Of a stretch of 39,407 bases of DNA, positions 24,803 through 25,630 are shown one piece after another. The stretch is from an uncultured Fidelibacterota bacterium. Its GTDB lineage: Bacteria; Fidelibacterota; Marinisomatia; Marinisomatales; UBA1611. Under the pieces are notes generated by a model. It saw only the letters and a list, made by a program, of their open reading frames with translations. It made no database searches and was not told where the DNA came from. The stretch lies in assembly GCA_902611135.1 (NCBI GenBank), contig CACLYL010000008.1:1-39407 (forward strand), read 5' to 3'. The first letter of the stretch is position 1. Each line of letters opens with the position of its first letter. Both the position numbers and the translations under genes were made by a program.

Positions 24803-25630
24803 ATGTTACCTCTTTCTAAATTTTTTCTCTGGCTCTCTTTATCAATAGGATATCTGTATTCCCAGTATTATGAAATTGGAGATACAATAGTCAATTTTGG
24901 AGCTGATATTTGTGCAAATGGTGATGGATCATGGAATTTTAATGCTGAGTCTTACAACAAGGTAGTGTATCTTAGTATATTTGCATCTTGGTGAGGCGGT
25001 TGTCAGGCGGAGGCTCCGGAAATTGAAGAATTAAAAAATCATTACAGTAACCAAAATGTACTCATCATAAGTGCTGGGCGCGACTGGAATCAACCATACA
25101 GCTGTCAGGAATGGGTCCAAGAATTTGGACTTTCTTTTCCAATTTTAGATGATGAAAGTGATTCCTTATCAAGTATATTTGGGACTTCAATACCTACAAA
25201 TGTTGTTATTGATGCCAATAAGTTAGTCACTTTTGTTTCTAGCTATCATAATATGGGTCAAGTTGAAGATGCAATTGAAAGTGCGCTCAGTTCTATAATA
25301 CCTGATACAGATGGAGATGGAATATTAGATGATATAGACAATTGCATAGGTGTTGAAAATATTGATCAAATTGATAGCGATGGAGATGGCTTTGGAGATG
25401 AGTGCGATATATGTGACAATACAAGCACATGGGTTGGTCTAAACATTAATGGTAATATCAATTTAAATGGTTCATATGAAGTAGATGTGTTCGACCTGCT
25501 GGCATTAGCAGATCTTGTCTTAAATAACTACACAGATAACTGTGGTTTTGAAATATCTGATCTAAATGGGGATAATAGCGTAAATGTTTTTGATGTAATC
25601 ACTTTAGCGCAGTTTATAATAGAAAATTAA
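24803..25630 (+). CDS. Exported thioredoxin-like protein with in-frame TGA at UxxC, probable selenoprotein
   Basis: Read as one gene with TGA decoded as selenocysteine (24992-24994, residue 64), it encodes 275 residues. A signal peptide (about 1-20) leads into a TlpA/redoxin-type domain: VVYLSIFASW, then U-G-G-C-Q-A-E-A-P-E, so TGA stands exactly at the first Cys of the CxxC active site and Cys67 is the partner. Downstream the frame is uninterrupted: LIISAGRDW and an SIPTNVVID loop with the cis-proline, both expected of the fold. Residues about 168-204 are two thrombospondin type 3-like calcium repeats (DTDGDGILDD, DSDGDGFGDE); about 212-274 look like a dockerin-type pair (NINGNINL, DLNGDNSVNVFD). 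Nearby pirin, methyltransferase and M23 genes end in TGA, so this is not a general code change. The alternative is a one-base nonsense mutation of a Cys codon. Confidence 0.75.
24992..25026 (+). promoter_or_regulatory. Candidate bacterial SECIS stem-loop after the TGA
   Basis: Downstream of the TGA is a short hairpin: CGGA at 25008-25011 pairs with TCCG at 25015-25018, closing a three-base loop G-G-C (25012-25014). A second, looser stem may be TCA at 25003-25005 with TGA at 25024-25026 across an internal loop. There are 17 bases between the TGA and the loop, and a G is at the first loop positions, as expected for bacterial SECIS elements bound by SelB. Stability is modest and it was found by eye. 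Confidence 0.5.

Follow-up and report, generated by a model that had tools for sequence, protein, structure and literature searches.

The window analyzed here is the whole 39,407-nucleotide stretch of DNA from an uncultured Fidelibacterota bacterium. On its forward strand, the frame at 24803-25630 runs for 275 codons plus TAA, and its sole internal stop is a TGA at codon 64 (24992-24994) in the context IFASW*GGCQAEAPE. Read as selenocysteine (Sec, U), this codon gives the active site W-U-G-G-C of a TlpA/ResA-like redoxin. Translation confirmed what a sequence-only reading had noticed, i.e., a continuous 275-codon frame with a single TGA at the first Cys of a thioredoxin active site. The split it expected from gene callers is real, with a separate ORF beginning at 25253 under standard ORF calling. 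The features of the locus are as follows.

24803..25630, forward strand: selenoprotein gene (very probable), 275 aa with TGA as Sec; predicted exported TlpA/ResA-like redoxin with a TSP3-like and dockerin-like tail
24803..24865, forward strand: N-terminus resembling a signal peptide by its sequence (MLPLSKFFLWLSLSIGYLYSQ), with a helix predicted at 4-18
24890..25282, forward strand: thioredoxin-fold TlpA/redoxin domain, approximately residues 30-160, with WUxxC, I-P-x-N at P131 (cis-Pro type) and invariant Cys37 and Cys101
24992..24994, forward strand: putative Sec codon (residue 64), in-frame TGA, same codon in orthologs
25008..25018, forward strand: SECIS-type hairpin CGGA-GGC-UCCG, starting 13 nt after the UGA, triloop GGC at 25012-25014, 17 nt after the TGA
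25304..25627, forward strand: C-terminal TSP3-repeat-like and dockerin-like module, homologous to the NF045500 C-terminus

Protein architecture and homologs

The read-through translation matched Redoxin (PF08534, 1.2e-12) and AhpC-TSA (PF00578, 2e-12), both over the cut-off and spanning the TGA. Since full-length orthologs also carry TGA at the same codon, the frame is not a product of chance. Matches to ResA profile models were below their cut-offs, and a sequence search against structures returned ResA/TlpA matches. An AlphaFold2 model built with 18 homologs (pLDDT 78, pTM 0.59) aligned in Foldseek with DsbE, ResA and CcmG structures at a TM score of ~0.8 normalised to the target, and residue 64 of the model directly precedes the active-site helix. 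Among the columns that are invariant across the 18 aligned sequences are W63, site 64, C67 and P131, together with two extra cysteines, C37 and C101. The protein thus has the thioredoxin fold, WUxxC in place of WCxxC and the cis-Pro motif of the TlpA/ResA type. It shares fold and active-site position with the ResA/TlpA/CcmG (DsbE) oxidoreductases, whereas those are Cys-based and lack a dockerin/TSP3 tail.

The N-terminal residues resemble a signal peptide. The C-terminal tail was below the gathering cut-off for Pfam TSP_3 and Dockerin_1, and by sequence comparison it is clearly homologous to the C-terminal end of the NF045500 Omp28-related selenoprotein. In some orthologs a type IX sorting domain is added (L028, TIGR04183), whereas the window protein stops at the dockerin-like part.

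Searches of the family and phylum recovered many full-length homologs, each with exactly one TGA at the same codon. An alignment of homologs had been proposed as a check, and in it the active-site column holds either TGA (76) or Cys (16) across 92 distinct sites in the phylum, a split that is no frequency estimate because TGA genes were fetched preferentially. Nine Sec/Cys changes were needed on the homolog tree, at least five of them on well-supported branches. After the TGA, substitutions are still distributed as in coding sequence, the third position varying most (57/37/105 by codon position between L027 and L028).

Several more distant configurations were also observed. One homolog (L107) has two TGA codons in a row at its active site (WUUPC). 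In L040, L041 and L045, a larger protein contains another TlpA-like Sec domain (FFxxWUPVCAPEFSD), and L040 and L041 have a hairpin at the same spacing. Eight distant homologs (L120, L121, L122, L137, L138, L139, L146 and L149) carry the TGA within xMSATWUGxCYSxIG; the GGAGGCTCC hairpin is absent at this place, and their SECIS must therefore differ.

The hairpin downstream of the TGA

Across relatives, the hairpin [N]CGGA-GGC-UCCG[N] occupies a fixed place downstream of the TGA. Pairing and covariation were evaluated for six pairs in a 40-sequence ungapped alignment. The pairs were formed in 90.8% of cells (76.2 +/- 1.6 in shuffles), double-change cells numbered 31 (9.6 in shuffles), and covariation was 0.382 (0.131 in shuffles); 0 of 500 shuffles reached values as high for any of the three measures. 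When the partner was slid by 1-3 columns as a control, pairing fell to 22-48%. Because the shuffles take no account of relatedness, more weight falls on the sliding control and on the Cys homologs.

One alternative, though a very improbable one, is that conservation after the TGA reflects the Q-x-E-A-P peptide alone and no RNA element, in which case a different SECIS could still make the protein a selenoprotein. E-A-P is indeed conserved in these redoxins, but where Cys homologs retain E-x-P they encode it with different codons, and the pairs are missing. GAG encodes the Glu at +6 in 57 of 58 TGA genes versus 2 of 11 such Cys homologs (GAG makes up only 29% of Glu codons in the window). Counting the T of TGA as column 0, pair 17-25 is present in 0/11 of these homologs and pair 19-23 in 2/11, so that two of the three inner pairs are gone. 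The pairs also covary, including changes from C-G to U-A to G-C. Furthermore, the unrelated Omp28-type selenoprotein genes of relatives contain a similar hairpin, CGCGA-GUU-UCGCG (variants UGCGA/UCGCA and CGCAA/UUGCG), which is shifted by 2 nt and read in a different codon register than in the TlpA-type genes.

The published bSECIS model sets loop size, a G at loop position 1, spacing and an energy cut-off of -7.5 kcal/mol (PMC13188914). The loop GGC with G first, the 4-bp stem and the 17-nt spacing of the window hairpin all fit; its energy of ~-3.6 kcal/mol alone (60-nt MFE -5.2) is weaker than the required <= -7.5. Over 60 nt, many relatives reach folding energies below -9. Unconstrained single-sequence folding of the window copy preferred another fold with a poor z-score and supported no stable hairpin. 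According to the review, a subset of real bSECIS elements fails the model (PMC13188914), and for this reason we do not count the energy against selenoprotein membership. A scan of the source genome (G000) with a hairpin model (R1) recovered only two genes, both already in its seed, and so yielded no independent discovery. The element after the TGA is of bacterial SECIS type, short and weak in the window copy.

Selenocysteine machinery and the reading of TGA

The source genome is represented by a 1.36-Mb assembly that is 57.9% complete. On contig C34, selA (TIGR00474, 492 bits) adjoins selB (TIGR00475, 324 bits, profile positions 1-575 of 581); a TPP riboswitch was also observed on this contig (L015 1517-1618, 66 bits). 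The selD gene (TIGR00476, 366 bits) is found at the end of C18, and its own Sec site is a TGA (GAGUACKIGP). A second TlpA-like gene, on C23, has TGA at the same active-site position (ATWUIPCQTE). A 2016 paper listed three SAR406 single cells with orphan SelD. The coordinates of selD and of the second TlpA-like gene are given below.

L020 1-900 (G000 C18 start), reverse strand: selD, truncated by the contig end, TGA at the Sec position
L002 1483-2052 (G000 C23, match 1992-2456): second TlpA-like putative Sec gene, hairpin CUGA-GUC-UCAG, without dockerin tail

The search for sel genes proposed by the sequence-only reading was therefore borne out for selA, selB and selD, while selC (tRNA-Sec) was not found in the 58%-complete assembly. 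The RF01852 matches in this genome belong to other tRNAs; the one over the cut-off was rejected as tRNA-Sec, being tRNA-Ser(TGA). No tRNA-Sec was found in a 76%-complete genome of the same genus either, where the best RF01852 matches are tRNA-Ser. Among the 33 family genomes, ARAGORN identified tRNA-SeC with anticodon TCA in 14, and selB was over the cut-off in 28. Two genomes that are 92-93% complete (G023 and G025) have TGA selenoprotein genes and selB, with no tRNA-Sec match at E<=1e-8, perhaps because the tRNA has diverged or falls into a gap of the assembly. A search of the source genome for the neighbor of tRNA-Sec in relatives found nothing, an uncontrolled negative that is consistent with an assembly gap.

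The open frame beyond the TGA and the lack of tRNA-Sec in the assembly could also be accounted for by genome-wide reassignment of UGA (to Trp, Gly or Cys) or by a leaky stop without Sec, which we regard as scarcely probable. The stops of the 28 other window ORFs are TAA (18), TAG (7) and TGA (3), so TGA is a normal stop in the window, as had been argued from three neighbors ending in TGA to make wholesale reassignment unlikely. When all six frames of the window were scanned for TGA in UxxC, CxxU and UxxS/T contexts, codon 64 was the only UxxC, located at an active site, with no second convincing candidate. The genome's selA, selB and selD, the latter with TGA at a known Sec position, likewise argue against reassignment. 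A pseudogene, or a sequencing or assembly error placing a premature TGA in a Cys-type redoxin, has almost no probability left, for although a single base change turns TGT or TGC into TGA and the assembly is one of low completeness, orthologs from many separately assembled genomes have the same TGA with the frame preserved and the hairpin conserved, and the excess of third-position substitutions persists after it.

The frame, the site, the conservation of the TGA, the covarying hairpin, the Sec machinery genes and the fold were all computed directly. We conclude that 24803-25630 is a genuine selenoprotein gene with a probability of about 96%, and infer from these results that Sec is actually inserted. 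The homolog column of Cys or TGA and the presence of selA, selB and selD support the probable selenoprotein originally proposed. What had been named as grounds for refuting it (a source genome with none of the sel genes, a TGA confined to one read set, or a column without conserved Cys) was not encountered, the same TGA recurring in many separately assembled genomes.

In the proposed mechanism, SelB bound to the hairpin would bring Sec-tRNA to the UGA at 24992. The product would be exported and, at the surface or in the periplasm, act as a TlpA/ResA-type thiol-disulfide oxidoreductase; this location, like the direction of the reaction and the substrate, we infer. As in TlpA/ResA, the attack on a disulfide or an oxidised substrate would come from the selenol of Sec64, and Cys67 would supply the resolving thiol. 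Through its TSP3/dockerin-like tail, the protein is probably held on the cell surface or within an assembly stabilised by calcium.

Relationship to known selenoproteins and Omp28-type partners

UxxC selenoproteins of the Prx-like, Trx-like and redoxin types are known from Sargasso Sea and GOS metagenomes (PMC1088965, PMC2398784; review PMC13188914). The Trx-like 1, Prx-like 3 and Redoxin-family members resemble the window protein in being marine, in having Sec at the first active-site Cys and in belonging to PF08534/PF00578, whereas the TSP3/dockerin-like tail sets the window protein apart. The GOS survey described a Prx-like 3 protein fused to an unknown domain, which, compared by description only, might be the same architecture. 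NF041054 also describes a ResA-like selenoprotein, but its motif is WAxxUGC rather than WUGGC (WUxxC), and the window protein scored 35 bits against a cut-off of 300. It passed no NCBIfam selenoprotein model. Two features are common to it and NF045500, namely the TSP3/dockerin-like module at the C-terminus (102 bits over residues 117-273, the C-terminal part only and below the 200-bit cut-off) and a similar SECIS-type hairpin, while NF045500 proteins differ in their Omp28-type redox domain with FTGLxUPYC. In a 2026 review, the hypothetical protein GOS_C (UxxC) has the NF045500 model accession (PMC13188914). Among literature matches on Marinimicrobia/SAR406/Marinisomatota selenoproteins, examined in part, no report of this TlpA family was found. 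A subfamily with a Sec-TlpA domain on the tail of the Omp28-related selenoproteins, and with a similar mini-SECIS, appears to be undescribed.

Relatives carry Omp28-related selenoprotein genes that encode FTGLxUPYC and have the same type of hairpin, likewise conserved (L021, L033, L038, L042, L044, L047 and L048, and also L031 and L036); the gene of L021 scores 549 bits against NF045500. In L031, L033, L036 and L038 the Omp28-type gene is ~1.3 kb from the TlpA-type gene, which suggests a partnership of the two selenoproteins; the incomplete source genome yielded no full Omp28-type gene. A tentative and rather doubtful extension is a lineage-specific extracellular system, in which TlpA-type and Omp28-type Sec proteins share a TSP3/dockerin-like tail (type IX sorting in relatives), closely placed genes and one GA-G(G/U)Y-UC mini-hairpin. 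If true, the selenoproteome of the phylum would largely consist of exported, surface-attached redox proteins acting as partners.

Standard annotation would fragment this gene and many of its relatives, concealing an exported redox enzyme. The covarying mini-hairpin offers a clean SECIS variant: it is short, the distance to its triloop is almost constant, and two different protein families use it. The repeated exchange of Sec and Cys provides natural Cys controls for the contribution of selenium outside the cytoplasm.
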